The translations under genes and the position numbers were made by a program. This document shows positions 22,697 through 45,528 of a stretch of DNA of 64,000 bases, in pieces. The notes under the pieces are model-generated. The model searched no databases. It saw only the letters and a program-made list of their open reading frames with translations, and was not told the DNA's origin. Numbering within the stretch: position 1 is the first letter of the stretch; each line of letters begins with the position of its first letter. The stretch comes from an uncultured Desulfomonile sp. (GTDB taxonomy: Bacteria > Desulfobacterota > Desulfomonilia > Desulfomonilales > Desulfomonilaceae): NCBI GenBank assembly GCA_903952205.1, contig CAJBEZ010000098.1, forward strand, positions 1 to 64,000, read 5' to 3'.

Positions 22697-23302
22697 ATGG
22701 TCTCGATCAACGAAAACAAGGACTTCACTCTCGTGGGGCAATGCCTTTCAGGGTCAGAATCCGCATGGATGGAATTTTATTCGCGCTTTGAAAGACTCGT
22801 TCGAATGGTTGTAAGGAGGCGGTTGCACAATTCTGAAGATGCAACCGAAGACGTGGTCCATGATGTTTTCATAACGCTTATATCTGCCCTTAAAAACTAC
22901 AATTCATCATATTCATTGCAGAATTTTGTCTGCACGATTGTAGAACGAGTGTGCGTAGACCGATACCGTTTTTCTAATGCCTCCAAAAGAAACGCTGAAA
23001 CCCATTCGCTGGACGATGAGAATTCCGGAGTTGTTTATCAGGTGATGAAAAGTTCGAACCAGCCGTGCCAGGAAGAAGCGCTGATTCTTGCGCAGGAAGC
23101 AGAGATAGTTAGGCGAGCATTGCGTTTACTCGGAATGAAGTGCCGTGAGCTACTCAAATTGCGATATTACGACGAGGCCCCGTACTCAAAAATTGCGGAA
23201 CTTACTGGGATTACTGAAAATACGCTGACCGTTCAGACTTCGCGCTGCATTCGAGAACTCAGGAACATTCACCGGAATCTTGTTCAGAGCGGGTACAAGT
23301 AG
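22697..23302 (+). CDS. ECF-type RNA polymerase sigma factor
   Basis: 201 residues. Region 2 covers about 20-90 (WMEFYSRFERLVRMVVRRRL, DATEDVVHDVFITLISALKN, QNFVCTIVERVCVDRYRFSN) and region 4 about 135-195 (CRELLKLRYYDEAPYSKIAE, LTGITENTLTVQTSRCIREL). It should direct transcription of an envelope-linked regulon. The stop TAG overlaps the GTG start of the anti-sigma gene (TAGTG), so both are made together. The RBS before ATG is weak. The downstream row of exported caspase, CHAT and OmpA genes is the natural candidate regulon, but no shared promoter motif was established. Confidence 0.9.
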   Translation: MVSINENKDFTLVGQCLSGSESAWMEFYSRFERLVRMVVRRRLHNSEDATEDVVHDVFITLISALKNYNSSYSLQNFVCTIVERVCVDRYRFSNASKRNAETHSLDDENSGVVYQVMKSSNQPCQEEALILAQEAEIVRRALRLLGMKCRELLKLRYYDEAPYSKIAELTGITENTLTVQTSRCIRELRNIHRNLVQSGYK

Positions 23303-24411: not shown

Positions 24412-24469
24412 TTTATTAACAAACCCGCAACCACGTTCTGTGGGAATTGTGATAAGGGAGGGCTCAACA

Positions 24470-25462
24470 ATGAACCGGAAATCCATCGCCTACCTCTTTG
24501 GCTTGGTTTTAATCATGACGGTCTTTTGCTCCGCTGTTCCAGGGATGACCATGGAAAACGGTCCCGGTATGCAGTCCAAAGGGGACAAGTGCTTAGCCGC
24601 AAAAGAAAAATATAACGAGGGGGTTCAATTAATAAATTATAAGGCTCGTCGTGAAGCTTTTCAAAAAGCCGTGGAACTTTGCCCAGATTATGCTGAAGCG
24701 CATGTAAACCTTGCTGACGCTCTCGAAAAACTAGGAGTGGAAGAAAGGGCAAAGTTTAGTGAAGAAAAGGTCAAGAATGGGAACAAACTGCTGGATGACG
24801 CCGTAGAACATTACTCCAGAGCCCTCAAGTTAAAACCGGAACTGGTGGCCGCCCAAATCGGCCTTGGTGATGTGTACGTTTCAAGGGGAAGCTATCCACT
24901 TGCCATTGAGCAATACAAGAAGGCCCTGAAACTTAAACCAGAGAATTTCGGAGTGGAAGCACGGTTGAAAGGAGCTGAAGGACTAGCTGGCGCTAACTCA
25001 AATGAGGTAAGGACAGGGTCTCAGATAATCAGAGACGTGAAAGAAAAAAATCTGACAGTCGCATTAAAAACAATGGGGATTGAGGATTACACGGTAGCTG
25101 ACACTGCCAGGCAGTCCTTCAACAACATCCTTTTTGAAGGATGGTCTTCCGCTATACGACCAGGTGAACCGGTCAACCAGTTGAACGAAATCGGAAAGGC
25201 TCTGGCGTCCAAGGAGATGTCGTCTTTCAAATTCATAATTGAAGGTCATGCCAACGCTGCCGGCCCTTTTGATCGCAACATGGTTGTATCGAACGAAAGG
25301 GCAGCGGCTGTAAAGGAATATCTTGTCAAGAATTATAGAATAGATCCCAGTAGAATCATAACTCAAGGTTTCGGATACAATTCGCCCAAACATAATCCGG
25401 CTACCGATGCTCTGAATCGCCGGGTCGAAATCGTCTTCTTTAATGAGGAAAACAAAAAATGA
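24470..25462 (+). CDS. Exported TPR-OmpA protein
   Basis: 330 residues from ATG 24470, with GGGAGGG 7 bases upstream. Signal peptide, then three to four TPR units (YNEGVQLINYKARREAFQKA; KLKPELVAAQIGLGDVYVSR), and a C-terminal OmpA peptidoglycan-binding domain (IIEGHANAAGPFDRNMVVSN, SNERAAAVKEYLVKNYRIDP, FGYNSPKHNPATDALNRRVE). It likely anchors partners to peptidoglycan in the periplasm. Its N-terminal TPR part is clearly paralogous to the protein at 41568-42443. The stop overlaps the start of the caspase gene (ATGA). It contains an octapeptide, MGIEDYTV, also found in the next protein. Confidence 0.85.
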   Translation: MNRKSIAYLFGLVLIMTVFCSAVPGMTMENGPGMQSKGDKCLAAKEKYNEGVQLINYKARREAFQKAVELCPDYAEAHVNLADALEKLGVEERAKFSEEKVKNGNKLLDDAVEHYSRALKLKPELVAAQIGLGDVYVSRGSYPLAIEQYKKALKLKPENFGVEARLKGAEGLAGANSNEVRTGSQIIRDVKEKNLTVALKTMGIEDYTVADTARQSFNNILFEGWSSAIRPGEPVNQLNEIGKALASKEMSSFKFIIEGHANAAGPFDRNMVVSNERAAAVKEYLVKNYRIDPSRIITQGFGYNSPKHNPATDALNRRVEIVFFNEENKK

Positions 25463-26901
25463 ACAGATTTCTAATCGCAAAAATCCCTTGTCCTAAGTTT
25501 TGCCTCAGGCCAACAGTGATGTTGATGTCATTTATACTCCTATTAAGCCTGTGGCTGATCACACCGCCGGCGGTGCAAGCCACACCACAGGATCTTTCCA
25601 ACAGTGAGTTGTATGCGGTGTTGGTCGGCGTCGCAAACTATCGTGACACATCGTTAAACCTAAAGCTATCAGCCAGAGACGCTCAGGACTTTTATGCGTT
25701 TTTGCAGGAACGGGGGAAGCTTTTCAAGAAAACCCATATTCGGCTTTTGGTCAATGAACAGGCTACGAGAGAAAACGTTACCAAGGCCATTCGAGATGAC
25801 CTGAAACCGGCCGGTAAGGACGATGTAGTAATAATTTTTCTGTCTGGGCATGGCGGTCCTGATGCCGTCAGGACAGACGAATTTTACTTCCTGACTCACG
25901 ACGCTGATCGTGAAAACCTTTTTGGGTCAGCGCTTCCTATGACCACATCCGGACTGTTCAAGGGAATTGATTCCGATCGGCTTATCCTTATTTCCGACGC
26001 CTGTCATTCAGGGGCCTTCAGTTCCGCTCTTGATAAGTCCTCAGCAAAAGCCGCCGACATATTCTTTTCAGTTTTCAAGAATTTACAGGGGAGATTTGCT
26101 TTTGCTTCCAGCAGGCCGGACGAAAGTTCATGGGAGGACGCGGAGAAGTTTGGCAACAGCACATTTACACACTTTGTACTCAAGGGACTTCGAGGCGCAG
26201 CCTGCAACAAATCCAGCAACGGAGTCATCACTGTAAAGGACTTTTACGAGTATGTATACCAAGGAACACGGGCTGAAACGAAAGGGAAGCAAAACCCGCA
26301 ACTTTACGCCGCAAAGGGACGAGCCGATGAGACCCCCATGTTCAGGGCGCCGGTCTACAATAACCCATTAAATATTAAGGTTTATTTTATGACACAGGAT
26401 GATGATGGCGAAGTAAAACCCCTGACGAATGATTCCACGCTTAAGTCCGGGCAGCGCATTGGCCTTGGGTTCCAGGCTGACGCTGACTGCTATGTGCATG
26501 TGGTCTGGTGGGATTCCAATGGAAATGTGGGGCGCCTGTTCCCGAATCCGAAGCTTACTGAGGGCAATGGTGAAGTTAAGGCAGGGGTCCCCCTGTGGTT
26601 GCCTTACAAACAGGGGAAGCACTGGTACGTGTTGGACAAAAATGAGGGAGAAGAGACCATCTATCTCGTAGCTAGCAGAGAACGCAATCCCAAGCTTGAG
26701 GAACTTTATACAAAATTGAAATCTTCAGGACTTGAGCGGGAATTCAATCTCATGGGAATAGAAGACTACACTGTGCCCGAAAAAGCGAAACAGCTTTCCG
26801 GTAAGGACAAACAACAGCTCTTTGAGAAGATGGAAAATCAGATCAAAGTAGTTGGGGCGGATAGCGCCATCAGTATCAAATTCAAGCATGTAGCGCCCTG
26901 A
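25459..26901 (+). CDS. Exported caspase-fold (peptidase C14) protein with DUF4384
   Basis: 480 residues. A long N-terminal region with a hydrophobic helix (VMLMSFILLLSLWLITPPAV) acts as signal peptide or anchor. The caspase p20-like domain spans about 55-290, with catalytic His131 in FLSGHGGPD and Cys182 in SDACHSGAF. DUF4384 follows (about 320-440: LGFQADADCYVHVVWWDSNG, GRLFPNPKLTEG). Metacaspase-like enzymes of this class usually cut after Arg or Lys. The gene overlaps the TPR-OmpA gene by 4 bases and precedes the CHAT gene by 63, so the three form an operon. Periplasmic or outer-membrane-facing location is inferred from the signal. Confidence 0.88.
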   Translation: MNRFLIAKIPCPKFCLRPTVMLMSFILLLSLWLITPPAVQATPQDLSNSELYAVLVGVANYRDTSLNLKLSARDAQDFYAFLQERGKLFKKTHIRLLVNEQATRENVTKAIRDDLKPAGKDDVVIIFLSGHGGPDAVRTDEFYFLTHDADRENLFGSALPMTTSGLFKGIDSDRLILISDACHSGAFSSALDKSSAKAADIFFSVFKNLQGRFAFASSRPDESSWEDAEKFGNSTFTHFVLKGLRGAACNKSSNGVITVKDFYEYVYQGTRAETKGKQNPQLYAAKGRADETPMFRAPVYNNPLNIKVYFMTQDDDGEVKPLTNDSTLKSGQRIGLGFQADADCYVHVVWWDSNGNVGRLFPNPKLTEGNGEVKAGVPLWLPYKQGKHWYVLDKNEGEETIYLVASRERNPKLEELYTKLKSSGLEREFNLMGIEDYTVPEKAKQLSGKDKQQLFEKMENQIKVVGADSAISIKFKHVAP

Positions 26902-26964
26902 TTAATCATGATCGACAATAGTCTGCTGCCCCTATGTGGCTAGGGACGAAAAGTGGAGGTCACT

Positions 26965-29900
26965 ATGTTCTACAGATTCATACGAGTGACGTTTATTTGC
27001 ATGATGATCTTGTTAGGGGCTTCGACTGGGTTCGCCCAGTCTGAAAAAGAGGGTTTCGCCCTGGAAAAGGAAGCAGACCAGATCCTAAAAAAGTCTCAAT
27101 CCAATTCGGACCTGGAAACAGCGCTTAAGAAATTCCAGGAAGCATTGAACATTTTTGAAAAAGCCGGCTCGGACAAAGGCAAAGGGTATGCCCTTAATAA
27201 TATAGGTCTAGTTCATTTCAGGCTGGGGCAATACTCCAAATCGCTGGAATTTTATGAAAAGGCGCTCTCTATAAAAAAGAAGATTGGTGACACCAAAGGG
27301 GAAGGCTATTCGATCCACGGCATCGGCTCTGTTTACTCGTCATTGGCTGAATATCCCAAGGCATTGGAGTATTATGAGAAGGCTCTTCAAATAAGGAAAA
27401 AGACCGGTGACGTTAGAGGTGAAGGCGATACTCTGGGCGCCATGGGAGGGGTTTACTCGTCACTGGCTGAATATCCCAAGGCATTGGAGCATTATGAACG
27501 AGCCCTTGAAATCAGGAAGAAGTTGGGAGACGTAAGGGGTGAAGGAAGTGCGCTGGGCGCTATGGGAGGGGTTTACAACGCCTTGGGGCAGTATCCCAAG
27601 GCGCTTGAATATAATGAAAAGTCACTGGAAATAAGGAAAAGGATCGGTGACGTTAGAGGTGAAGGCGATACTCTGGGCGCCATGGGACGGGTTTACTCGT
27701 CATTGGCTGAATATCCCAAGGCATTGGAACATTATGAGCGATATCTGGAAATAAAGAAGAAGTTGGGGGACGTGCGTGGAGAAGGAACCGCATTACAAAA
27801 TATCGGCTCTGTTTACTCCTCATTAGCTCAATACAATAAGGCACTGGAATATCAGGAGAAGTCTCTGGAGATAAGTAAAAAGACCGGTGACGTTAGAGGT
27901 CAAGGGTATAACTATCAATCCATCGGCTCTGTTTACTCCTCATTGGCTGAATATCCCAAGGCATTGGAGTATTATGAGAAGGCTCTTCAAATAAGGAAAA
28001 AGACCGGCGACGTCAGAGGTGAAGGAGATACTCTGGGCGCCATGGGGTCTGTTTACAGAGCCATGGCCCAGTATCCCAAAGCGCTTGAATATAATGAAAA
28101 GTCACTGGAAATAAGGCAAAAGATCGGTGACGTTAGAGGTGAAGCAGGCGCACTGCGTGAGATTGGTGAGGTTTATGCTGCATTAGGTAAATATTCTAAG
28201 GCGTTGGAACAGTATAATCGCTCTCTTGAAATAGACAGGAAGATTGGAGACATCAGGGGAGAAAGCAGTTCTCTTATTGATCTGGGCAATATCTACCGTT
28301 TGCAGGGCCAGTATTCCAAAGCCCTTGAAAGCCATGAACGTTCGTTTGAAATAAAGAAAAAGATTGGAGATGTCGCTGGGGAGTCCGCATGTCTTAACAA
28401 TATAGCAAATATATACAGCGTGTTAGGGCATTACCCAAAGGCGCTGGATTATTATGAGCGATCCATTGAAATAACAAAGAGGATTGGAGCCGTTAAAGGT
28501 GAAGGCTTATTGTTGTCAAACCTGGGTATAATTTACAGAAAACTTGGTCAACAGTCAAAAGCTCTTGATTATTACAAAAATTCGCTTGAAATAAGAAAAA
28601 GGATAGGTGACCTGGAGGGAGAAGCGGCGGTGTATTCTCTCATAGGATTGTTGTACGCCGACATGGGAAAATACTCAGATGGGCAGGCGGCCCTTGAAAA
28701 GGCGCTTCAAATAAACAAGACCATCGGAAAACCAACCAAAGGAGTGGAAAACAACCTGGCCAATCTTTTTCTCGACAGTGGCGATCTGTCAAGAGCCGAG
28801 ACAATTATTAACGAGTCCGGATATGACTCAACAAAGGCCCGGCTGAGTTTGCTGAAAAAAGACTATGTCTCGGCGGGAAAGTATTATGAAAAAGGGGTCG
28901 CCGCTGCCGAAAAAACAGGCGCCACAGACGGGCTATTTATAAGCTACACTGGATTCGCAACCTCAAACGAGGCTTTGGAGAACTATGAGAAGGCTGAGGA
29001 ATATTATGAAAAGGCGATGAATCTTCTAGAGGAGGTAAGGTCAGGGCTCTTGCCTTCTGAACGAAAAAATTTCTTTGAAGTCAAGATGGGGGGATTTTCC
29101 CGAATAGAGCCGGCTAAAGGGTTAACCCGAGTTCGTATGAAACTTAATCGCCAGGACGGGGGTATCCAGGCGCTGGAGGTCACAAAAGCAAGAGCGTTCG
29201 CTGACCATCTGTCCGAGACTTCAGCTTCGGGAGCGTCTGGAATTCCAAAGGAAACCATGGAAAAGGAGCAGTATCTTGTGAACCGGCTGGTTGCGCTCAA
29301 GAAAGAGCTTGCAAAGACGGATAGACTCAAACAGTCAGCGAGGTATGAGATCCTGTCCAAGGACACCCAGGATGCCGAGGCAGACTTGGGAGCTTTTGTG
29401 GATAGTCTTTGGAAAAATCACCCATCTTATGCGGCGGTCAAGTATCCGCGGCCTATAGGAATAAAAGACTCAGCTCTGGCGCCTAAAGAGTGCGTGGTCA
29501 TGTTCGATGTTTCAGGTTCAGGGGTCATGATAAAGCTTATTCGAGACAAGAAGGAGGCCGAAAGTTTTTTCAAGACGTGGGACATTGCAGACCTTGTGAA
29601 AGACGTTATGAGATTTAGGGCGCCTTTTGAAAATAAAAATCTGAGGGAATTTGATCCAGAACTTGCGGAAAGCCTCTATCGGAAACTCTTACAGGCGGTA
29701 CTGGTCGATGTGCCAAAAGGAACTCCACTGATCATCATTCCGGACGGGATTCTGGCTGTATTGCCGTTCGAAGCTCTGGTGACAGGAGGGAAAGCGACGT
29801 GGAAAAAACTGGAGGACAAGAACTGGCCTGAAAAGTTCACATACTATCCCGAAGGGATAACATTCCTCGGAGATGATTATCCTATCAGCTATTACCAATC

Positions 29901-30672
29901 CTTGTCAGCCCTTACGCTCGTCAGAAACATGGGCGCCAAGATAAAACCTAAGGATAGCGTCCTCGTGGTTGCGGATCCTGTATTCAACCTGAAAGACGAA
30001 CGGGCTCAACTGGCAAGTCCAATCAGGTCGGCGGAAAAGGAGAAAGAATACAATATTAAACTAATGCAAGCGATTGAGGAGAGTGGTGGGCCGACTTTCA
30101 ATCAACTGCCTGAGACCGGGATTTTGGCTGAAAATCTCGCGAATATGTATGGGGACAATTGTCTGGCTCTTACGGGCCTCAAGGCCGACAAATCTGATTT
30201 TCTCACGAAAGTGGCGCCTCGGATCGATCAATTCGGCAGTGTGGTGTTTGCGACTCACGGTGTAGTGTCAAGCAAGACCGCTGGGCTTATGGAACCGTTT
30301 CTTGCGTTAACCATGGTTCCGCACGGTAAGGATGGGTTCCTCAAGATGTCGGATATATTATCGCTCAAGATGAATGCTGACATAGTCGCTCTGACCGCAT
30401 GCCAGACTGGTTTGGGCAAGGAAGTCTCCGGCGAGGGCGTGGTCAGCATGGGTTACGCTTTCCAATATGCAGGCGCCAAATCCGTGCTCATGTCACTATG
30501 GGAGGTTGAGGCTTCCTCCGCTGTCACTCTGGCTGAAAATTTCCTCAGGTACCGTAAGTCAGGAAAGACCAAGCTGGAATCACTCAAAGCGGCAAGAGAC
30601 GACATCCGCAATGCCGGTTACAAGCATCCGTTCTTCTGGAGTGGATTCATACTGGTTGGTGAAGCGTCTTGA
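26965..30672 (+). CDS. Exported TPR-CHAT protein 1
   Basis: 1235 residues from ATG 26965 (GGAGGT upstream). Signal peptide MFYRFIRVTFICMMILLGAS, cleavage near GFAQ. About 13 TPR units of 40 residues each (consensus ALEYYEKALQIRKKTGDVRG, EGDTLGAMGGVYSSLAEYPK) fill 70-600, followed by degenerate TPRs and a C-terminal CHAT domain (caspase HetF-associated with TPRs), about 890-1235. Catalytic His1098 (VFATHGVV) and Cys1146 (LTACQTGLG) are present. CHAT proteases are usually activated through their TPRs. Here an export signal is present, which is not the usual setting of CRISPR- or gasdermin-linked CHAT proteins. Several TPR repeats are near-identical in DNA. Confidence 0.93.
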   Translation: MFYRFIRVTFICMMILLGASTGFAQSEKEGFALEKEADQILKKSQSNSDLETALKKFQEALNIFEKAGSDKGKGYALNNIGLVHFRLGQYSKSLEFYEKALSIKKKIGDTKGEGYSIHGIGSVYSSLAEYPKALEYYEKALQIRKKTGDVRGEGDTLGAMGGVYSSLAEYPKALEHYERALEIRKKLGDVRGEGSALGAMGGVYNALGQYPKALEYNEKSLEIRKRIGDVRGEGDTLGAMGRVYSSLAEYPKALEHYERYLEIKKKLGDVRGEGTALQNIGSVYSSLAQYNKALEYQEKSLEISKKTGDVRGQGYNYQSIGSVYSSLAEYPKALEYYEKALQIRKKTGDVRGEGDTLGAMGSVYRAMAQYPKALEYNEKSLEIRQKIGDVRGEAGALREIGEVYAALGKYSKALEQYNRSLEIDRKIGDIRGESSSLIDLGNIYRLQGQYSKALESHERSFEIKKKIGDVAGESACLNNIANIYSVLGHYPKALDYYERSIEITKRIGAVKGEGLLLSNLGIIYRKLGQQSKALDYYKNSLEIRKRIGDLEGEAAVYSLIGLLYADMGKYSDGQAALEKALQINKTIGKPTKGVENNLANLFLDSGDLSRAETIINESGYDSTKARLSLLKKDYVSAGKYYEKGVAAAEKTGATDGLFISYTGFATSNEALENYEKAEEYYEKAMNLLEEVRSGLLPSERKNFFEVKMGGFSRIEPAKGLTRVRMKLNRQDGGIQALEVTKARAFADHLSETSASGASGIPKETMEKEQYLVNRLVALKKELAKTDRLKQSARYEILSKDTQDAEADLGAFVDSLWKNHPSYAAVKYPRPIGIKDSALAPKECVVMFDVSGSGVMIKLIRDKKEAESFFKTWDIADLVKDVMRFRAPFENKNLREFDPELAESLYRKLLQAVLVDVPKGTPLIIIPDGILAVLPFEALVTGGKATWKKLEDKNWPEKFTYYPEGITFLGDDYPISYYQSLSALTLVRNMGAKIKPKDSVLVVADPVFNLKDERAQLASPIRSAEKEKEYNIKLMQAIEESGGPTFNQLPETGILAENLANMYGDNCLALTGLKADKSDFLTKVAPRIDQFGSVVFATHGVVSSKTAGLMEPFLALTMVPHGKDGFLKMSDILSLKMNADIVALTACQTGLGKEVSGEGVVSMGYAFQYAGAKSVLMSLWEVEASSAVTLAENFLRYRKSGKTKLESLKAARDDIRNAGYKHPFFWSGFILVGEAS
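27310..28150 (+). repeat. Near-identical 120-bp TPR-coding repeats
   Basis: Within CHAT protein 1, blocks about 130 bases long recur with few differences: 27322-27446 versus 27922-28046 (offset 600 = 5 units) and 27601-27654 versus 28081-28134 (offset 480 = 4 units). This shows recent intragenic duplication and predicts copy-number change among strains. Confidence 0.8.
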
Positions 30673-30943: not shown

Positions 30944-32062
30944 ATGAAGAGAAAAATGTTTCTACTGACACTGTGCGTCCTGTTACTAGGAATGGCTCCG
31001 GTATTTCATATTCAAGGAGTTTTTGCTTACACTTTGGATGACCTCCTGAATCTGACAAAAAAGATTCAGAATGAAAACCCCGGAATTGATTTTAGCTTAA
31101 AAACCGACAAAGATGAATACAAGGTGGGGGAAGATGTTTTAATAGAATTTAAGGCCGATAAAGACTGTTACCTTGCGCTTATCGACATCGGAACCAGCGG
31201 GAAAACCATAATACTTTTTCCCAATAAATGGCACCCGGACAACAAAATCGAAAAGGATAAACCCTATACAATTCCACCACTTGGAAGCGAGTTTTCGTAC
31301 AGGGTGATGGGGCCTGGAGGAGTGGAGCACATCAAGGCAATCGCCAGCGTGGACCCGGTACTATCCAAGATTGGATCCCTCCAGGAAGAACTTAAGCAAC
31401 CGATAGAAACCAAGCCGGAAAAGGGACAGGTATTCCTTAGTATGAAGGCCCCAGGAGCCGTTCTAAAAGACATTGGAATCGAATTTCAGAAATTGGATCC
31501 CAGCAAGTGGGCGACAAAAGAGTGCACTTTCAAGATTGCTGATGCAGGCACAGGGACCACACCTTATCCGGAACAGCCGCCTACGAGTGTGCCCCCTGGG
31601 ATAAAACCCACAGAGGCTCCAGAGGTATTTAAAGGTAAAGACGGGTTCTACGAAATACGGTATGACTCCGCAAAATGGCGGGTAGCCCCTAGGCCCGGCG
31701 ATAGCGCCGAAAAAACCTTCAATCATAAGACAGGCGATGCGAATGCGCTTGTTTTGGTTCCGCCAGTCCAGGCCTCGGTTCCTATGGAAACTATCAAGCA
31801 AGCGTTTCTGGAGATCATTAAAGGAGTTGCGTCTGATGTCGTAGTCAAGGAGGACAAGGAAATCCAGATTAACAACACCACAGTCACGTCTATGATAGTA
31901 AATGGCAAGAGTGATGGGAATCCTTATTATTTCCATGCTTACTTGTGGAAGGGCCCCTCCGGTGTGGTAGAAGTAGTTGGTTCTTGCCCTGAAAACGTGC
32001 TGCCGCAGGTCAGTGATGACATCGAAAAGTTCTTGAATGGACTGGTCATTACCAAACCTTAG
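30944..32062 (+). CDS. Exported DUF4384 protein with PsbP/DUF1795-like C-terminus
   Basis: 372 residues. Signal peptide MKRKMFLLTLCVLLLGMAPV, cleavage near VFAY. The DUF4384 domain (about 45-150) has LIEFKADKDCYLALIDIGTS, then KTIILFPNKWHPDNKI, matching the domain fused to the caspases at 25459 and 32262. After a Pro-rich linker (TPYPEQPPTSVPPGIKPTEA), residues 235-372 form a mixed alpha/beta domain (FYEIRYDSAKWRVAPRPGDS) that resembles PsbP/DUF1795-type folds. It thus looks like a caspase-free partner in the same compartment. It has its own 271-base upstream region, so separate control is possible. Confidence 0.8.
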   Translation: MKRKMFLLTLCVLLLGMAPVFHIQGVFAYTLDDLLNLTKKIQNENPGIDFSLKTDKDEYKVGEDVLIEFKADKDCYLALIDIGTSGKTIILFPNKWHPDNKIEKDKPYTIPPLGSEFSYRVMGPGGVEHIKAIASVDPVLSKIGSLQEELKQPIETKPEKGQVFLSMKAPGAVLKDIGIEFQKLDPSKWATKECTFKIADAGTGTTPYPEQPPTSVPPGIKPTEAPEVFKGKDGFYEIRYDSAKWRVAPRPGDSAEKTFNHKTGDANALVLVPPVQASVPMETIKQAFLEIIKGVASDVVVKEDKEIQINNTTVTSMIVNGKSDGNPYYFHAYLWKGPSGVVEVVGSCPENVLPQVSDDIEKFLNGLVITKP

Positions 32063-32261
32063 CAAAAGCACGGAAAGGTAGGATTCCAGGGACACAAAGC
32101 TATTATTATCGCAACGGATCTTTGCAAGGTGATACCAAGTTACCAAGTATTCATGGGAAAGCAGATTTCTTGTAAGAGTTAGTAAGGTTTAACGAATATT
32201 AATTTTGGCGGCTTTGGTAAGTCCCGATTGGAATATTCATAATAGCATCAGGAGGCGCTGG

Positions 32262-33758
32262 ATGAGTCGTTTATTTAGATTTTTCGCCTTTATCGGGATT
32301 GTGGCCATCGGTTTGACTTACGCCACAGGCGTGGGGCATGGCCAATATTTTGGAAAAGCAAAGGACTGGAAGGACATTTACATCCTTCCCACTAACCCAA
32401 ATCCTCAGAACAACATAAAACTGACGCTTTCAGCCGAAAAACAATCCCTAAAGCCGGGGGATGAACTGAAACTAACTTTCACCGCTGACAGGGAGTGTTA
32501 CTTGACCCTGATGGACATGGGAACTTCAGGAAAGATTCTCAGACTGTGGCCTAACGACTATTCAGGACAAGACAACCGGATAGGGGCTAACAGTCCAAGA
32601 ACTTTTCCAGGCCCAGGAGACAAGTTTCGCTACAGAATTTCTGCCCCGAATGGAACAGAGAACATCATAGCTTACGCCACTTCGGAAAAGGGCAAGAATC
32701 TGTCGGAACAGGAATTCATGCAACTTAAGAATACCGGATTCAAGGAATATCGTGGCAGCGCTAAGGATCTCGCGATAGAATTCAAACGCAGAACCGACAC
32801 CCTTGATCCAAACATGTACTGGGGTACAGCTCAGACCAATATCCTGATAACTTCTGATTCGGCTTCGAGACCTGATCCTCGTCCTGATCCTCCTCCGGAG
32901 GTGCGACCCCAGTCGGCGCTGTACATGATGTGTGTGGCGGCACAACAGCATGACCGAAAACTGAAACACTGTAACACTGACGCACAAAGGATGGCGGAGG
33001 TATTTCAGTCCAAGCTGGGCATAGAAAAATCGAACACCAAGGTGTTCATAGATGCTGACTACCAAGCGTTCGTTTCGGGGATCCAATGGTTGGCGTCAAA
33101 CACACGGCCGGAAGATGGAGTTATCATTTATTACCGGGGCCATGGTGGTCAGGTTCGCGATAGGCCTCCAATTGATGATCCTGACGGTTTGGACGAATTC
33201 CTGTATCTTCATCCAGGCAGACCAAATAACATGAGGGATGACGAAGCAATCAGAAAGAAAATCTATTTGCTCGATGATGAGCTAAATGTGCTCTTGAAGA
33301 AGATACCCGCAAGGAAAAAAATTTTTATCTCTGACTCGTGTCATTCGGGAAGCCAGACAAAAGATGTCGTAAATATTCCAGAAATGGCTTCGCAGTATGA
33401 ACCCTCAACCGATCATGACAGTGCAAAGAACGCTTCCAAGCCCAAAATGAAAAGCAAACCCACGAACTACGGGAATGACAACGAAACTGTAATTGGGGCC
33501 TGCCTTGATAATGAGGTTTCATGGGAAATCAATATGGCTCAGGAATTTAAGGGGGGTGTATTAACTCACTTTTTGCTCGATGCCATAGAAAAAGGTAGCC
33601 CCGACATGGAGAGCGCTTTTCGTGAGGCCAAGATAAATACTATCCGCTTCATTCAGGACTGGCCCAAGAAATATCCTGACAAAAAGCCTCCGTCGATGCA
33701 AACGCCGTGCCTCACTGACCCGCATGGATTGTTGAAGGAACTCAGATTCCGCAATTAA
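32262..33758 (+). CDS. Exported DUF4384-caspase protein (domain order reversed)
   Basis: 498 residues from ATG 32262, with AGGAGG 6 bases upstream. Signal peptide MSRLFRFFAFIGIVAIGLTY. DUF4384 comes first (about 50-170: LTFTADRECYLTLMDMGTSG, LRLWPNDYSGQDNRIG), then a Pro-rich linker (PDPRPDPPPEVRPQ) and a C-terminal peptidase C14 domain with catalytic His294 (YYRGHGGQV) and Cys360 (SDSCHSGSQ). In the 25459 protein the order is the opposite. The ALYMMCVAAQQHDRKLKHCN start of the caspase domain replaces the usual ALLIGI, with DAQRM as normal. The serpin gene follows 81 bases downstream. Confidence 0.88.
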   Translation: MSRLFRFFAFIGIVAIGLTYATGVGHGQYFGKAKDWKDIYILPTNPNPQNNIKLTLSAEKQSLKPGDELKLTFTADRECYLTLMDMGTSGKILRLWPNDYSGQDNRIGANSPRTFPGPGDKFRYRISAPNGTENIIAYATSEKGKNLSEQEFMQLKNTGFKEYRGSAKDLAIEFKRRTDTLDPNMYWGTAQTNILITSDSASRPDPRPDPPPEVRPQSALYMMCVAAQQHDRKLKHCNTDAQRMAEVFQSKLGIEKSNTKVFIDADYQAFVSGIQWLASNTRPEDGVIIYYRGHGGQVRDRPPIDDPDGLDEFLYLHPGRPNNMRDDEAIRKKIYLLDDELNVLLKKIPARKKIFISDSCHSGSQTKDVVNIPEMASQYEPSTDHDSAKNASKPKMKSKPTNYGNDNETVIGACLDNEVSWEINMAQEFKGGVLTHFLLDAIEKGSPDMESAFREAKINTIRFIQDWPKKYPDKKPPSMQTPCLTDPHGLLKELRFRN

Positions 33759-33839: not shown

Positions 33840-35102
33840 ATGAAGCACAAATTAAGCCTTACCGCTTTGATCTTTTTGTTGGCGTTGGCAACCTTCTGGC
33901 TCGCCTCCGCAAACGCTGACGCATTGAATGTAGAAACAATGGTTCAGGACAATTGCCATTTTGGATTAGAACTATACCGGAAGCTTGGCGCGGCTGAAAG
34001 TGGGAACATTTTTCTTTCACCATTTAGCGTTTCAAACAGTCTGGCAATCGTGTACGCGGGGGCACGTGGCAGCACTAAGGATCAAATGGCGCGGACGCTA
34101 AAATTTTCTACGAATCGGGACGAAGTCGTCCAGGCCTTCGGCACAATAAATTCGAGTTTGAATCAATTGAAAACATTGGGAAATATCCGCATGGATACCG
34201 CCAATTCAATATGGCCCCAGAAGGGTTATGACATTGCGCCAAAATTCCTTGAGTTGGTTCAAAGGAGCTATGGCGAAGCCATCATACCAATAGACTACGA
34301 GAAAAATCCTGAAGAGGCGCTGCAGACAATAAATCAATGGATTGCCCAAAAAACACGCGAAACGATCAAAGAGATGATTCCGCAAGGTTCGCTGGACAAG
34401 GCAACCAGGTTAGTAATTGCTTCGGCGATTCACTTTAAGGGTGACTGGCGCCGAAGCTTCAATCTAGAAATGACAAAAGACATGGACTTTTTCCTTGCGT
34501 CGGACAAATCAGTCCGCACTCCAATGATGACACAGATTTCAGAGTTTAAATATGCTGAAACAGAATCACTTCAAATTCTGGAAATGCCTTACGTGGGGAA
34601 TGAACTGTCCATGTTGGTTGTTCTTCCCAGAGAAATCAATGGCGTCAAGGCGGTCGAAGACTTTTTATCCGGAGAAAATTTGAAAAAGTTGCAACGGAAG
34701 ATGTCTCCAACGAAAGTTCTGATTCACATTCCCAAGTTCAAGATAAATTCAACATTTTTTCTTGCCGAAACATTAACTTCAATGGGCATGAAGGACGCCT
34801 TCATCAAGGCAAAGGCCAATTTCTCAGGCATAGCTGAAAATAAGGACAATCCGTTGTACCTATCGACTGTTATACACAAAGCTTTTGCCGAAATAACAGA
34901 GGAAGGGACCGAAGCGTCTGCTGCAACTGTCGGAGAGATGGTGTCAATGGGCATTCTGCCGACTGATCCGCCGGAGCCTCTTCACAAGTTCCGCGCCGAT
35001 CATCCATTCATGTTTCTTATTCAAGAGAATAAAACAGGCAGCCTGCTATTCATCGGGCGGGTAATAGATCCTGCGTTTGGTAGGGTTGCGAATGGCGGAT
35101 AA
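33840..35102 (+). CDS. Exported serpin (serine/cysteine protease inhibitor)
   Basis: 420 residues from ATG 33840. Signal peptide MKHKLSLTALIFLLALATFW, cleavage near ANADA. Serpin motifs: NIFLSPFSVSNSLAIVYAGA, ANSIWPQKGYDI, LVIASAIHFKGDWRRSF, and the C-terminal FRADHPFMFLIQENKTGSLL. The reactive-centre hinge EEGTEASAAT (354-363) has the small residues needed for strand insertion, so it should be inhibitory. The loop runs on as VGEMVSMGILPTDPPEP; the scissile bond is uncertain (Met370-Gly371 by length from the hinge, or after Asp376 by length from the C-side). Being encoded between caspase-fold and CHAT genes, it is a candidate inhibitor of them. Confidence 0.95.
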   Translation: MKHKLSLTALIFLLALATFWLASANADALNVETMVQDNCHFGLELYRKLGAAESGNIFLSPFSVSNSLAIVYAGARGSTKDQMARTLKFSTNRDEVVQAFGTINSSLNQLKTLGNIRMDTANSIWPQKGYDIAPKFLELVQRSYGEAIIPIDYEKNPEEALQTINQWIAQKTRETIKEMIPQGSLDKATRLVIASAIHFKGDWRRSFNLEMTKDMDFFLASDKSVRTPMMTQISEFKYAETESLQILEMPYVGNELSMLVVLPREINGVKAVEDFLSGENLKKLQRKMSPTKVLIHIPKFKINSTFFLAETLTSMGMKDAFIKAKANFSGIAENKDNPLYLSTVIHKAFAEITEEGTEASAATVGEMVSMGILPTDPPEPLHKFRADHPFMFLIQENKTGSLLFIGRVIDPAFGRVANGG

Positions 35103-35224: not shown

Positions 35225-35995
35225 ATGTTTAAAATATTTCTTCCGATATTACTGTTGATAATTGTCCCGTGTAAGGCAGGCCTTGCCGAAACATGGGAGG
35301 AATTCCAAAGCCTTAAGGCTGCTGAAGAAGCATCGGCGCCAGTTGCAAAGAGCGGCCCCAAAATGATTCCCAAGGACGTTGTAATAGAAAAACTCAAGAC
35401 TAATTGCGAAGTTACCTATAACAGCGACGCACTGCTGTTTCATTTCGGCCAGTCAGTCTTGAAACCCGGTTCCATGCCCAACATTAAGAGTATGGCGGAA
35501 GCTCTCATCCAGGCCGCCAGTGACCCTGAACTCTCAAAGATTAGTCGCTATTACGTTGATGGTCACACGTGTTCCGTTGGAGGAGCTGAAATGAACTGCA
35601 AGCTCTCCTGGGCAAGGGCAAACGCAGTCATTGACCACCTGGTTACGTTGGGTGTTCCCAAGGATAAACTCGTACCGAGAGGGTACGGGCTCGCATACCC
35701 CGCGCATTCAAATGACAGCGAAGAGACTCGGATCCTTAACCGACGGGTAGTCTTGAAGGGAGACTGCAAAGAACCGTCATCGGGACAGGACCCCACGCCT
35801 TGCTCAATGTCGGACAAAGGCGCCTCCCAGTCACAGAAACGACATCAGGATCAGCGGGTTCCTCCCAGTCTGGAGGAACTCGTAGGCATTAAAAGCGGTT
35901 ACAAGTCCCGCAACACAGAGGGAAGCGTGTCGCCAGGTTCTGGTCGTGAAAAGGATCGTCAGTCTCTTCCCACAGGTTTCAGGAGGACTGACTAA
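35225..35995 (+). CDS. Exported OmpA-domain protein
   Basis: 256 residues; GGAGGAGCAAA lies upstream of ATG. Signal peptide MFKIFLPILLLIIVPCKAGL. OmpA-like domain at about 65-185 (LLFHFGQSVLKPGSMPNIKS, YYVDGHTCSVGGAEMNCKLS, LSWARANAVIDHLVTLGVPK, ETRILNRRVVLKGDC) with four Cys residues that could form disulphides. The last 70 residues are Ser/Gln/Lys/Pro-rich and disordered, unusual for this domain and possibly a protease-sensitive tail. It lies 122 bases downstream of the serpin gene and may be transcribed with it. Confidence 0.85.
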   Translation: MFKIFLPILLLIIVPCKAGLAETWEEFQSLKAAEEASAPVAKSGPKMIPKDVVIEKLKTNCEVTYNSDALLFHFGQSVLKPGSMPNIKSMAEALIQAASDPELSKISRYYVDGHTCSVGGAEMNCKLSWARANAVIDHLVTLGVPKDKLVPRGYGLAYPAHSNDSEETRILNRRVVLKGDCKEPSSGQDPTPCSMSDKGASQSQKRHQDQRVPPSLEELVGIKSGYKSRNTEGSVSPGSGREKDRQSLPTGFRRTD

Positions 35996-38173: not shown

Positions 38174-38229
38174 TAGTTTACGCCAATGGCCGTTCCAATT
38201 GGCTCTTTCCGAGGGTAGGAGGACAATTG

Positions 38230-41200
38230 ATGAATATCAAAATATTATGCGGAGTTATCGGGATTCTCATTTTTATATGGGCCGGGTCGGTTCTGGCGCA
38301 GTTTGAGAGTCAGGCCAGCAACCTGGCCAAGGAAGCAAAGACCATCTTTGATAGCGCAAAGTCAAAAGATGATTATCAGAGGGCTGTTCAGAAATACGAA
38401 GAGGCCCTGAAAATCTTTGAAAAAGTCAAGTCAGACAAAGGGATAGGTCTCTGTTCCTACCAACTCGGTGTAATTCAATCCCGTCTTGGACAATATCAGA
38501 AATCGCTTGAATATTATGAAAAGTCGCTGGCCATAGCCAAGAAGCTAGGTAATGTAAAAGGTGAGGGAGCGAGCCTTGGCGCTATAGGCGGTGTTTACAG
38601 CAGTTTAAGCCAATATCAGAAGGCACTCGAATACCATGAACAATCTCTAGCGATAAACAAGAAGCTAGGTGATGTAAAAGGTGAGGGAGCGAACCTTAAC
38701 AACATTGGTATCGTATACCAGGACGTAGGCCAGTATCAGAAGGCTCTCGAATACTATGAACAATCTCTAGCCATAAAAAAGAAGATTGGCGATGTCAGAG
38801 GTGAGGGAGCGAGCCTTGGCGCTATAGGCGGTGTCTACGGCAGTTTAAGCCAGTATGAGAAGGCTCTCGGATACTATGAACAATCTCTAGCCATAAACAA
38901 GAAGATTGGCGATGTCAGAGGTGAGGGAGCGAGCCTTGGCGCTATAGGCGGTGTCTACGGCAGTTTAGGCCAGTATCAGAAGGCTCTCGAATACTATGAA
39001 CAATCTCTAGCCATAAACAAGAAGATTGGTAATGTTAGCGGTGAGGGAGGGAACCTTGGCAATATAGGCGGTGTTTACCGCAGTCTAGGCCAGTATCAGA
39101 AGGCTCTCGAATACTATGAACAATCTCTAGCCATAGCCAAGAAGCTAGGTAATGTAAAAGGTGAGGGAGCGAATCTTAACAATATCGGCAGGGTCTACAA
39201 AGACCTAGGCCAATACACCAAAGCTCTGGACTACTATGAGCAATCTCTCAACATAAAAAAGAAGATCGGGGATGTCAAAGGCGAAGGGAATTCGCGGGGC
39301 AACATAGGCATCGTGTACAAAGATTTGGGCCAATACACCAAGTCTCTTGAATATCTAGAGCAGTCTCTCCAAATACAAAAGAAGATTGGAGACGTAAAAG
39401 GCGAGGGGTATACGCTGAACAATATCGGTGAGGTATATGGTTCCCTCGGCCAATATACCAAGGCCCTTGAATATTATGTGCAGTCGCTTCAAATAAAAAG
39501 GAAGATTGGAGATGTTAACGCTGAGGGGTTAACGCTTAGCAACATGGGCCAACTGTATGCCCTAACGGGAAAGACCGAAGACGCTCTGAACGCAATGAGA
39601 CAGGCTCTTGAAATTAGTGAGAAATTAGGGACACCAACCTCGGAACGCAAGGACGCTATTGCTAATCTATATCTTGACGTGGGGGACTTTACCCAAGCGG
39701 AAAATCTACTCAAACAGAAGGGCAAGAATTTATCACTTGGCAGACTTGCTCTTCTAAAGTCTGACTATCCGACAGCGGCGAAATATTATGAGATTGCAGT
39801 AAATAGCGGTGAGAAGACAGGTAACGCAGATGTTCTATTTACAAGCTACACGGGTCTGGCCAAGGCCTATGAGGGTATGAAGAACTACCCTAAGGCTGAA
39901 GAATATTATGAAAAAGCAATGAACCAGGTTGAAGGGATACGGTTTGGTCTTCTACCCTCAGAACGTAAGAACTTCTTTGAAGTGAAAACAGGCGGTTTCA
40001 CCCGATCCGATCCGGCCAAGGGTTTAGCCAGGGTGAGGATGAAACTCAACCATCCTGACGCAAGTATTGCACCGAGCGAACTCACTAAAGCCAGGTCCTT
40101 CGCAGACCATCTGTCACAAACCAATGCAATTGGCGCAACCAATATTCCTAGCAGCCTTATGGATAAAGAACAATCTTATGTCAATCAACTGGCCGCCTTA
40201 AAAAAAGATTTAGGTGACACCGACGCTGAAAAAGAGCCTGACAAATTCAAGAACCTTTCCAAGTCTGTCAAAGAAGCCAAAGACGAACTCAACTCCTTTG
40301 TTGACACATTATGGAAAGACTACCCCGCTTACGCTGCCGTAAAGTATCCCAGGCCCCCAGGTCTCAAAGACTCAGCTCTGAGACCTGAAGAATACGCAGT
40401 CATTTTAGATGTTTCAACCGAAGGCGTTGGAGTCATACTCATACGAGACAAGGCTGTGAGCAAGGCGTTTTATCTCGACCTCAAGTTGAGTGATCTTGAA
40501 CGAGATGTAATGAAATTTAGGGAGCCCTTTGAAAAATTTCGCTTAAAAGATTACGATCCTGAGCTTGCCAAATCCCTCTACGACAAGTTGTTACGCCCTG
40601 CGCTCGTTGACGTTCCCAAAGGAGCGCCGCTTACAATAATACCTGACGGAATACTGGCGATGTTACCATTTGAAGCTCTGGTGACAGGAGGTAAACCGAC
40701 ATGGGAAAAGGTAGACAAAGAGTGGCCGGATATTTTGAAGGATTATCCGGCAGGGCTCATCTTCCTGGGCGACGAGCATCCAATAGGCTACTACCAATCT
40801 GTAACAGCTTTGACGCTTGTCAGGACCATCGGTAACAAGGAGAAGCCGAAAGATAATCTTCTCGTGGTTGCGGACCCTGTATTCAATATGAAAGATCAAC
40901 GGGCTCAACAGGCCACTGAAACAAGATTGTCTCAAAAAGAAAAAGAATACAACGTTCAGCGAATGGCAGCGATGGAGGACGTTGCAGGTCCTCCATTTCC
41001 GCAACTACCTCAGACTGGGAAGTTGGCCGACAACCTTGTGAAGATGTATGGAACCGATTGCCTTTCCATCACAGGACTAAAGGCTGAAAAACTGGATTTT
41101 CTATCCAAGATAGCCCCACGGATGGATCAATATGGCAGAGTGGTATTTGCGACCCATGGGGTCATGGGCAACAAGGTTCCGGGAGTTATGGAACCGTTTC

Positions 41201-41571
41201 TGGCCCTTACAATGGTACCACCAGGCACTGACGGTTTCCTCAAAATGTCGGATATCCTGTCACTCAAGATGAATGCGGACGTAGTAGCCCTTACTGCCTG
41301 TCAGTCTGGGCTGGGTAAAGAACTCTCGGGAGAAGGTGTCATGAGCATGGGGCGAGCCTTCCAATACGCAGGAGCAAAATCAGTCCTGATGTCCCTATGG
41401 CAGGTTGAAGAGAAATCTGCCGTGACACTGGCCGAGAACTTTTTTAGATATCGCAAGGAAGGTAAGACCAAGCTGGAATCACTAAAATCAGCAAGAGACG
41501 ATATACGCAACGATGGTTATAAACATCCCGTCTTCTGGAGCGCTTTTATACTGGTTGGAGAAACATCATGA
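38230..41571 (+). CDS. Exported TPR-CHAT protein 2
   Basis: 1113 residues; ATG 38230 with AGGAGGAC upstream (the TTG just before is not needed). Signal peptide MNIKILCGVIGILIFIWAGS, cleavage near VLAQ. About ten 40-residue TPRs (QYQKALEYYEQSLAINKKIG, DVRGEGASLGAIGGVYGSLG), a degenerate TPR zone, and a CHAT domain (about 770-1113) with His976 (VVFATHGVM) and Cys1024 (ALTACQSGLG). It is closely paralogous to CHAT protein 1 in the catalytic part. It overlaps the TPR-OmpA gene that follows (ATGA), so the two are coupled, suggesting that the CHAT enzyme works with a peptidoglycan anchor. Confidence 0.93.
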   Translation: MNIKILCGVIGILIFIWAGSVLAQFESQASNLAKEAKTIFDSAKSKDDYQRAVQKYEEALKIFEKVKSDKGIGLCSYQLGVIQSRLGQYQKSLEYYEKSLAIAKKLGNVKGEGASLGAIGGVYSSLSQYQKALEYHEQSLAINKKLGDVKGEGANLNNIGIVYQDVGQYQKALEYYEQSLAIKKKIGDVRGEGASLGAIGGVYGSLSQYEKALGYYEQSLAINKKIGDVRGEGASLGAIGGVYGSLGQYQKALEYYEQSLAINKKIGNVSGEGGNLGNIGGVYRSLGQYQKALEYYEQSLAIAKKLGNVKGEGANLNNIGRVYKDLGQYTKALDYYEQSLNIKKKIGDVKGEGNSRGNIGIVYKDLGQYTKSLEYLEQSLQIQKKIGDVKGEGYTLNNIGEVYGSLGQYTKALEYYVQSLQIKRKIGDVNAEGLTLSNMGQLYALTGKTEDALNAMRQALEISEKLGTPTSERKDAIANLYLDVGDFTQAENLLKQKGKNLSLGRLALLKSDYPTAAKYYEIAVNSGEKTGNADVLFTSYTGLAKAYEGMKNYPKAEEYYEKAMNQVEGIRFGLLPSERKNFFEVKTGGFTRSDPAKGLARVRMKLNHPDASIAPSELTKARSFADHLSQTNAIGATNIPSSLMDKEQSYVNQLAALKKDLGDTDAEKEPDKFKNLSKSVKEAKDELNSFVDTLWKDYPAYAAVKYPRPPGLKDSALRPEEYAVILDVSTEGVGVILIRDKAVSKAFYLDLKLSDLERDVMKFREPFEKFRLKDYDPELAKSLYDKLLRPALVDVPKGAPLTIIPDGILAMLPFEALVTGGKPTWEKVDKEWPDILKDYPAGLIFLGDEHPIGYYQSVTALTLVRTIGNKEKPKDNLLVVADPVFNMKDQRAQQATETRLSQKEKEYNVQRMAAMEDVAGPPFPQLPQTGKLADNLVKMYGTDCLSITGLKAEKLDFLSKIAPRMDQYGRVVFATHGVMGNKVPGVMEPFLALTMVPPGTDGFLKMSDILSLKMNADVVALTACQSGLGKELSGEGVMSMGRAFQYAGAKSVLMSLWQVEEKSAVTLAENFFRYRKEGKTKLESLKSARDDIRNDGYKHPVFWSAFILVGETS
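38560..39240 (+). repeat. Tandem near-identical 120-bp TPR-coding repeats
   Basis: Consecutive 120-base units coding for GEGASLGAIGGVYGSL and neighbours differ at few positions (for example 38801-38920 versus 38921-39040). Such internal homogeneity indicates recent tandem duplication or gene conversion. Assembly of this stretch from short reads could also be unreliable. Confidence 0.8.
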
Positions 41572-42443
41572 CTCGTTTAATTTTTATCCTGTGTGCGCTT
41601 ATTTCGACGCCGCTATTAGTGACCGCTGATGACAACTGTGACAAGGCAAAAGAATATTATCAAGAGGGCGTAAACGCTCTTCAATTCGCCAAACGCAAAG
41701 TCGCTTTTGAGAAGGCCGTGAAATTATGCCCGACGTACGCCGAAGCGTATAATAATCTGGCGGACGCTTATGAAAACCTGGGCGAGTTTGAACAGGCTGA
41801 AAAATATTACAAACAGTCGGCTAACCTCAAACCAGATTTGTTCGTTCCTTTACTTGGGTTGGGCGAGTTGTACCTGAAGTCAGGAAGATACAAGGACTCT
41901 TACGATGCTTTTGTCGGAGGATTAGAGATCAAACCTGACAACGAGAGGCTTAAAGCAGGCCTTAAGGTGGCCGCTCAACGTGTTGAACAGGTCTCCAAAT
42001 TCCTGAAATCGGATAGTATCAAGTCTTGTATCGACGGGGACGAGACTTTTCGGCTCATGTGCATGTGCCCCGGCGATCATTATGAGTTTCTGAAGAAGAG
42101 AATCTGCGTGCCAACCCTGCATTTTATGTCTGGTTCAACCCAACTTACCTCGAACAGCAAAAAACAACTAACCGAAATTGGTCTGGCTTTACAATCCGAT
42201 ACGCTTGGCAAAAAGAAATGGTTCATCGTAGGACACGCTGACAGTATTGGGAGTCTGGAACGAAATCTTGAACTATCCAGACACCGGAGCGAAAGCGTTA
42301 GAGATTATCTTGTCAAAAAATGTAACCTGGACGAAAAATCGTTTAGCATAAAATGTTTTGGTCAGACCTGGCCATTGGATTCTAACGGTTCCAACGTTGG
42401 TCGAGGGCAAAACAGACGGGTTGAGATTATCCTGGATGATTGA
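41568..42443 (+). CDS. Exported TPR-OmpA protein 2
   Basis: 291 residues. Short signal peptide MTRLIFILCALISTPLLVTA; TPR section about 20-125 (CDKAKEYYQEGVNALQFAKR; LCPTYAEAYNNLADAYENLG), and OmpA domain about 175-291 (FMSGSTQLTSNSKKQLTEIG, WFIVGHADSIGSLERNLELS, SRHRSESVRDYLVKKCNLDE, GQNRRVEIILDD). The linker region contains five Cys residues, likely disulphide-bonded. Paralog of the protein at 24470-25462. Start overlaps the CHAT stop by 4 bases. Confidence 0.88.
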   Translation: MTRLIFILCALISTPLLVTADDNCDKAKEYYQEGVNALQFAKRKVAFEKAVKLCPTYAEAYNNLADAYENLGEFEQAEKYYKQSANLKPDLFVPLLGLGELYLKSGRYKDSYDAFVGGLEIKPDNERLKAGLKVAAQRVEQVSKFLKSDSIKSCIDGDETFRLMCMCPGDHYEFLKKRICVPTLHFMSGSTQLTSNSKKQLTEIGLALQSDTLGKKKWFIVGHADSIGSLERNLELSRHRSESVRDYLVKKCNLDEKSFSIKCFGQTWPLDSNGSNVGRGQNRRVEIILDD

Positions 42444-42676: not shown

Positions 42677-43387
42677 ATGTCCGGCCATATGTTTAAACCG
42701 CTTATTCTGATGTCGCTTTTGGCTGTAAGCTTGTTGTTCCTTCATTCCGTTTCTGTCTCCTGGGCGTCTGATGAGGCTGCAGGCGCGGGCCACGAGCTTG
42801 CAGTCATAGGCGAGGCGGGAGCCAAGGCCATCGATATCAAGATAAGCGCTCAAAAGCATGGAGGAGGCGCTCCGGGCAAAGATGACCCAGTGTCTGTGGT
42901 GATTACTCCATCTGCGCCTGCTTATGTCACCGCTATTTATATTTCACCTGAAGGTGACGCCGTGGTCCTTTTCCCCAACAAAAAAACCACTGATAATCAG
43001 TTGGCCCCAGGTAAAGATTACACCATTGTCGGTTCTGATTCCGGCCTGAAATCAGGATTCAGCCCAACAGAAGATAAAGACAAGATAGTGGTTTACGTCT
43101 CTTCAAAACAACTAATATTGCATCCGCTAAAGGCAGAGCAGGACCAGGAATTTATCGTCATCCCACATGACGCGGCCAAAGAAATGCAAACACTGGCTAA
43201 CAAAATAGCGGCTCTTTCGAAGGATGAAACCTTTAACCGCAAGTTGATTACACGCAAAACTCTGGCGCAGCCGGGACAGGGCGACAGCATAATGGCTTTG
43301 CCTAAGTCAGTCGAGAGCGTCCGACCTGCAGACGTGACAGGCGGTGTGGGAGTAAAAACCAAGACCAAGGCATCAGGCAATGATTGA
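42677..43387 (+). CDS. Exported DUF4384-like protein
   Basis: 236 residues; GGGGGG precedes ATG 42677. Signal peptide (MFKPLILMSLLAVSLLFLHS, cleavage near SWAS). Single DUF4384-like domain (about 60-165) with DPVSVVITPSAPAYVTAIYI and DAVVLFPNKKTTDNQLAPGK; the VVLFPNK motif is the same as in the other DUF4384 proteins here. C-terminal tail is helical then Val/Gly/Lys-rich. It is the fourth DUF4384 protein in 18 kb. Confidence 0.75.
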   Translation: MSGHMFKPLILMSLLAVSLLFLHSVSVSWASDEAAGAGHELAVIGEAGAKAIDIKISAQKHGGGAPGKDDPVSVVITPSAPAYVTAIYISPEGDAVVLFPNKKTTDNQLAPGKDYTIVGSDSGLKSGFSPTEDKDKIVVYVSSKQLILHPLKAEQDQEFIVIPHDAAKEMQTLANKIAALSKDETFNRKLITRKTLAQPGQGDSIMALPKSVESVRPADVTGGVGVKTKTKASGND

Positions 43388-43919: not shown

Positions 43920-43931
43920 ATGGAGGGAATG

Positions 43932-45329: not shown

Positions 45330-45528
45330 AAGGGTTGGGATTGGGATCTATTCTAGGAAACGCCGGGTGAAATGCGCTTATACGGGTTTCCCAAGACAAT
45401 CGTGCCCGTGTGGTCGGGTATCCATAAACGGACTGGCCATAAAAGATCTTGCTATGGCTCCACGCTGAAGCAATCTTCTGCTAACCACTCAGTATCTGAG
45501 TTTTTGGGGACAAACTTTTCAACTTGAA

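Follow-up and report, generated by a model that had tools for sequence, protein, structure and literature searches.

The window, by which is meant the whole stretch of 64,000 nucleotides analysed from an uncultured Desulfomonile sp. (GCA_903952205.1, contig CAJBEZ010000098.1), carries on its forward strand a cluster with an ECF-type sigma factor gene at its head. It also contains an anti-sigma-like gene, two genes in which Peptidase C14 and DUF4384 domains are joined, TPR-CHAT, TPR-OmpA, DUF4384 and OmpA-family genes and, amongst them, a gene for a serpin (Table 1). One C14 product (25459..26901) also resembles the NCBIfam model caspase_w_EACC1, at a score below cut-off, and between the OmpA gene downstream of the serpin and the second TPR-CHAT gene is a short frame that TPR matches weakly. 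A preliminary description had placed the serpin between caspase-fold and CHAT genes. This is right for the cluster and for the 5′ neighbour, which encodes a DUF4384-C14 protein, but the immediate 3′ neighbour is of the OmpA family and the CHAT gene starts 3.1 kb downstream.

Table 1. Features of the serpin locus in the window (residue numbers are those of the serpin; the slash marks the predicted signal-peptide cut; L039, L040, L041 and L043 are the sister loci).
Feature	Position	Strand	Basis
ECF-type sigma factor, head of locus	22697..23302	+	Pfam; homologues at L039, L040, L041, L043
zf-HC2 anti-sigma-like protein	23302..24411	+	Pfam; homologues at L039, L040, L043
TPR-OmpA protein	24440..25462	+	Pfam
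Peptidase C14 + DUF4384, His and DACHSG motifs kept	25459..26901	+	Pfam, alignment
TPR-CHAT protein, THG and TACQTG motifs kept	26953..30672	+	Pfam
DUF4384 protein	30944..32062	+	Pfam
DUF4384 + Peptidase C14, immediate 5′ neighbour of serpin, DSCHSG kept	32205..33758	+	Pfam, alignment
Serpin of inhibitory type, predicted secreted, 420 aa	33840..35102	+	PF00079, PDB search, AlphaFold model
Putative signal peptide (residues 1 to about 28): hydrophobic stretch followed by AxA-type sites SANA/DA	33840..33923	+	Sequence by eye
Reactive-loop hinge EEGTEASAAT, residues 354-363, P17-P8	34899..34928	+	ExGTEAAAA-type hinge
Met370, P1 as predicted by a 17-residue count; Ser369 would be P1 in a loop shorter by one	34947..34949	+	Loop alignment
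Asp376 of LPTD (373-376), earlier candidate P1, here P6′	34965..34967	+	Loop alignment
OmpA-family protein, immediate 3′ neighbour of serpin	35225..35995	+	Pfam
Second TPR-CHAT protein	38227..41571	+	Pfam
TPR-OmpA protein	41568..42443	+	Pfam
DUF4384 protein	42677..43387	+	Pfam

Upstream of the sigma factor gene a DUF3160-related gene is present in three loci, those of the window (20766-22460), L041 (9700-11502) and L040 (18915-19499); Pfam matches the domain in the first two, and the L040 frame, which is cut by the end of its stretch, matches the window protein. Phage capsid-like, resolvase and transposase genes occupy the left end of the window (585-10024), and beside the locus (43920-57710) are condensation-domain-like, radical SAM/B12 and ketoacyl-synthase-III-like genes together with two for MMPL transporters. 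The 4.8 Mb genome to which the window belongs has 19 CHAT matches, including three TPR-CHAT matches in the window (26953, 38227 and 51769).

The serpin gene itself was correctly delimited in the preliminary description, its frame running exactly from an ATG at 33840 to a stop at 35100-35102. The PF00079 match spans profile positions 2-370 of 370 (E 2.5e-114), a full-length domain that places the product among the serpins. Matches in the PDB amount to 211 distinct sequences, with chloropin (8gxv) the best at E 1.5e-83. An NCBIfam search with the protein gave no match, and a search of plasmids returned distant serpins only, all below 60% identity. It is the sole serpin detected in its own genome. 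Judged by eye, the N-terminus, MKHKLSLTALIFLLALATFWLASANADA, resembles a Sec signal peptide, and by the same criterion the C14, CHAT, DUF4384 and OmpA products of the cluster mostly begin with signal-like stretches too, so that inhibitor and enzymes could share a compartment, whether the periplasm or the outside of the cell. In an AlphaFold model (7 rows; mean pLDDT 79.5, pTM 0.80) residues 356-368 form a strand and residues 370-384 have pLDDT below 50. The matches that Foldseek listed for the model are serpins, the best being antithrombin L chains, which we take to be the latent form, with cleaved serpins lower down. From the strand and these matches the model looks like a loop-inserted serpin. 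Structure prediction, which had been proposed as a check, gave an insertion-type result that fits an insertion-capable hinge; the cleavage site cannot be placed from the model.

The hinge was rightly described at the outset as inhibitory in kind. ExGTEAAAA is given as the motif common to known inhibitory serpins (PMC8233489), and the stretch GTEASAAT has the Thr at P14 and the small residues from P12 to P9 expected of an inhibitor. More hangs on where the loop would be cut. The window serpin measures 33 residues between Gly356 of the hinge (P15) and the PF-motif Pro. The same distance in alpha-1-antitrypsin is 25, in accord with the loop having been called about 8 residues longer. Long loops are usual in bacterial serpins, with distances of 26-31 in most of those compared and 35 in L050, and the extra length of the window serpin falls on the P′ side. 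Because that side is of variable length, P1 is not safely located by counting back from the C terminus.

Loops were accordingly lined up from the hinge Gly, and registers of 17 or 16 residues, P17 to P1, were compared. The loop table holds 45 serpins, and the register counts use 44, L060 being excluded since its hinge-pattern match was out of register. The table does not include the matches without a locus, namely those in G062, G235, G413 and G121 and the second G332 copy, nor the fragments in G023 and G031 or the second ones in G090, G098 and G170. Among bacterial serpins not linked to C14 genes, P1′ is Ser or Ala in 32 of 39 with the 17-residue register and in 7 of 39 with the 16-residue one, so that the former is the usual register in bacterial serpins. 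The P1-P1′ pair of the window serpin would then be Met370-Gly371, with Ser369-Met370 as the 16-residue alternative, and the earlier count from the hinge, which gave Met370, agrees. The motif LPTD is present and both residues had been numbered correctly. Asp376, proposed as P1 on the C-terminal count, is rejected as such: the hinge register puts it at P6′, with Met370 at P1 in the one register and Ser369 in the other. Neither Lys nor Arg occurs in the loop from the hinge to Lys383.

The serpins linked to C14 genes share no one bait residue, and their loops differ in all five. In the 16-residue register, with the slash at the predicted cut, they read TMLE/ST in L041 and QAMD/TG in L043, the further ones being VPD/S in L039, VKF/A in L040 and MVS/M in the window. 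Window and L039 serpins are 49% identical overall, yet by hand count only 1 of 13 residues is alike from P7 to P6′. An acid followed by Ser, Thr or Ala at either register occurs in 3 of 5 linked serpins versus 2 of 39 unlinked ones (Fisher p 0.007), and any acid at either register in 3 of 5 versus 4 of 39 (p 0.02). As proof of the direction of inhibition the excess of acid plus small residue was rejected, the comparison being post hoc, with two registers counted and the window loop not among the three.

The enzymes next to the serpin have also been considered for what they might cut. Caspases of subfamily C14A take Asp at P1, while the metacaspases and paracaspases of C14B take Arg or Lys, and the S1 pocket proposed for the metacaspase TbMCA2 includes Asp95 on helix 1 and Asp211 (both PMC4357240). 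Both window C14 domains align with metacaspases and have the dyad and Asp pair of C14B, with GHG, D-x-C-H-S-G and an Asp at the helix-1 position. Asp211 of TbMCA2 presumably stands two before the catalytic Cys, and the Asp pair of the window domains probably corresponds to that S1 pocket. On that footing an inhibitor of these C14 enzymes should have Arg or Lys at P1, residues that do not occur in the window loop ahead of Lys383. The specificity of the kind shown by viral CrmA, which had been raised for Asp376, is unsupported on both sides, as the Asp is not at P1 in register and the neighbours look like C14B enzymes that would cut after Arg or Lys. By eye, the helix-1 Asp is present in 10 of 11 C14 proteins checked from the serpin loci and a paralogous locus. 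The exception is the C14 encoded directly ahead of the serpin in L039 of the sister species (L039:8275-9708), where His and Cys are kept, the helix-1 Asp region deviates and CHSR replaces CHSG, changes that could mark an enzyme which has been altered or is decaying. In the window the His and Cys motifs of the C14 and CHAT proteins are intact. The TPR-CHAT proteases of type III-E systems, orthologues of Craspase, are described as cutting L/D, M/K and A/S (PMC11106740), and with M/K among these sites a Met at P1 is no obstacle to a CHAT target. No CHAT was recognised at L040, L041 or L043, loci that have the serpin and were read over 18-20 kb.

How far serpin and C14 genes travel together was followed in relatives. 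Serpin-like matches were obtained in 14 of 60 relatives by protein search, and a family search found serpins in 13 of the 42 class genomes and in 7 of the 18 belonging to the window's family. C14 (PF00656) was found in at least 14 of the 18, a lower bound, as G011 was unmatched though a C14-like domain with CHSG is readable in its L139. Of the eight serpin loci in the family, five (the window, G001, G007, one of two in G013, and G016) have a C14 gene 0.15-5.1 kb from the serpin; their genomes represent four genera, and the loci have DUF4384 and an ECF sigma factor. The tail probability for this linkage, 2.4e-8 assuming independent loci, is made too optimistic by shared descent. A better argument is that linkage has been kept despite rearrangement and amid flanks that are not conserved. 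Common to the window and the sister loci L039, L040, L041 and L043 are the sigma factor, C14, DUF4384, OmpA and serpin genes, and three of the four sister loci have the anti-sigma gene as well. The flanking genes of the window do not recur there, except the DUF3160 gene in two of the four, a second CHAT-TPR gene, and one right-hand window ORF that matches anti-sigma genes at a low score. In L041 the serpin is divergent, being transcribed away from the remainder of the cluster.

Beyond the family the association was not found. Class genomes with a serpin outside it had no C14 match, and among 30 further serpin genomes of the phylum 5 had C14, none within 10 kb of the serpin (there are 31 such genomes, G121 with its fragment not being counted; the four genomes of L002-L005 were examined as well). 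In Planctomycetota 80 of 120 serpin genomes were examined; 41 had C14, and where both genes lay on one contig the closest were about 16 kb apart, in a survey where the weakest serpin matches were not placed and contig ends may hide linkage. One Planctomycetota genome has three tandem serpin genes (L004:7455-11200). The linkage is thus a trait of the family and not of bacterial serpins at large. In the best serpin tree (44 rows, L050 dropped) the linked serpins fall into two groups, window plus L039 and L040 plus L041 plus L043, though a single clade is not rejected (p-AU 0.26). With C14 in at least 14 and serpins in 7 of the 18 family genomes, the locus can evidently occur without a serpin.

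In two sister loci the serpin is directly followed by a gene for a serine protease. In L041, 37 bp after the serpin, DUF4384 is joined to a trypsin-fold domain (PF00089, E 2.8e-11) whose best PDB match is the glutamyl endopeptidase 1p3c (E 3.4e-27). Present in it are TAGHC, NSDFDF and GGQSGSA, and GIHTQGG aligns with GVHNAG, the region of the specificity His, as in S1B glutamyl endopeptidases; we assume that this His sets a preference for Glu. The L043 serpin is followed at 15 bp by a gene whose product has DUF4384 and a subtilase domain (Pfam, E 6.6e-32). Three DUF4384-serine-protease genes were recognised in the family loci read, two of them directly behind a serpin and the third, in L137, not. 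This last is a DUF4384-subtilase (L137:2709-6184) whose end overlaps the start of a pentapeptide-repeat frame, and there is no serpin in the 9 kb read. In the 16-residue register, with a loop short by one residue, the L041 serpin would present Glu to a protease of Glu-type specificity. Only in L041 is there a predicted specificity for bait and protease alike, and this depends on the less usual register.

The loci of the window and L039 have no DUF4384-serine protease, the only peptidases recognised there being C14 and CHAT. The window's own genome has no S8 match and 7 S1 matches, all HtrA-like, 5 of the 7 with PDZ domains. GNSGGP is present in six, and the seventh (L136) matches DegP/HtrA models below cut-offs. 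The genus-sister genome G001 has five S1 matches, all with GNSGGP. A paralogous locus in the window's genome (L135:2237-6920; G000:C69:9000-28900) comprises sigma, anti-sigma and C14 genes, and the end of the C14 gene overlaps the start of a DegP/HtrA frame, so there too a C14 gene accompanies a serine protease.

The best explanation, one to which we would give about an even chance, is that an envelope-protease locus has in the serpin its own resident suicide inhibitor, acting most likely, in the sister genera, against serine proteases. Secreted and loop-inserting, it would be the brake or self-protection factor of a DUF4384-tagged protease locus with an ECF sigma factor at its head. The loop would be cut at Met370-Gly371, or at Ser369-Met370, and inserted, leaving the protease trapped as an acyl-enzyme. 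The usual targets would be serine proteases of chymotrypsin or subtilisin fold and not the caspase-fold C14 neighbours; the window serpin, for which its own genome showed no dedicated partner, would act on an HtrA-type protease of the periplasm or on one of external origin. In favour are the synteny, the recurrence of cluster genes alone in the sister loci, the DUF4384 proteases directly behind the serpin in L041 and L043, the Glu of the L041 loop in the 16-residue register, and the contrast between the C14 Asp pair, expected to favour Arg or Lys, and a window loop lacking both before Lys383. Against this stand the absence of such proteases from the window and L039 loci and the lack of S8, and of any S1 that is not HtrA-like, in the genome itself. 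Also against it are the need of the L041 Glu for a 16-residue register when most bacterial serpins fit 17, and the carriage of the locus without a serpin. Of the enzyme-inhibitor cluster proposed earlier, what stands is an exported-protease locus and a C14 link in five genomes, while the CrmA-like caspase specificity does not.

A minority possibility that deserves some weight is cross-class suicide inhibition of a local clan-CD enzyme, either a C14 orthocaspase or a secreted TPR-CHAT protease. The C14-containing neighbourhood is conserved, C14 and CHAT alone are recognised as peptidases in the window and L039 loci with their motifs kept save in the one deviant L039 C14, plants and an alga provide serpin-metacaspase pairs (PMC10609998), and cleavage at M/K by Craspase-type CHAT (PMC11106740) makes a Met P1 not contrary. 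The Arg or Lys that the C14 Asp pair predicts is nevertheless missing, Asp376 is out of register, the serpin is kept at L040, L041 and L043 where no CHAT was recognised, and in two loci it is serine proteases that adjoin it. Rather doubtful is a general shield against proteases of other organisms, within an envelope-stress regulon and without a partner in the locus. Bait loops that differ in all five linked serpins are in keeping with it, as are an S1 complement that is HtrA-like throughout, without S8, and the position of other surveyed bacterial serpins away from C14 genes, but it does not predict that in two sister loci the serpin gene should be followed at once by one for a DUF4384 protease. 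Similarly unlikely is an exported serpin re-aimed, lineage by lineage, at whichever protease the locus holds, S1B, S8 or, in the window's genus, clan-CD C14 or CHAT. A non-inhibitory serpin with a substrate, carrier or structural role is very improbable in view of the inhibitory hinge with small residues at P12-P9, the 356-368 strand of the model and its best matches among loop-inserted serpins.

Among characterised serpins, CrmA has Asp at P1 and AtSerpin1 a basic residue; with no Arg or Lys at P1 the window serpin differs from the latter. The nearest relative with a solved structure is chloropin from Chlorobium (8gxv), like it an inhibitory bacterial serpin with the same hinge type, though the P1 measured for chloropin is Arg383 in place of Met370, and the report on it nowhere uses the word 'operon' (PMC10090351). 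AtSerpin1 with AtMC9 and AtMC1, and CrSERPIN with CrMCA-I (PMC10609998), are cases of serpins acting on C14B, the subfamily of the window neighbours, but in eukaryotes; the bait region of the window loop has no basic residue. Caspase-inhibiting serpins are known from viruses, and CrmA shares with the window serpin the fold and the idea of cross-class inhibition (PMC7863939). CrmA, however, targets Asp-specific caspases, and here Asp376 is at P6′ and the local C14 enzymes look Arg/Lys-specific. Bacterial pseudo-orthocaspases have been described in which DUF4384 accompanies C14 and trypsin-like domains, and no serpin is mentioned in the passages that deal with them (PMC6426788). Among the papers listed by searches of the open-licence literature, none linked a serpin of bacteria with a locus of C14 or DUF4384 proteases.

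For most bacterial serpins no natural target has been named, and where candidate proteases and a serpin are encoded in one conserved locus, the question of the target becomes directly testable. In two genera a protease of known type is encoded 15-37 bp behind the serpin, giving co-encoded pairs. Should the window serpin act on C14 or CHAT, it would be a bacterial counterpart of the eukaryotic and viral serpin-metacaspase and serpin-caspase pairs. Should serpins of this family have been re-aimed by lineage, this would give the first bacterial serpin to regulate caspase-fold proteases, and the pairing would extend beyond animals, viruses, plants and algae.
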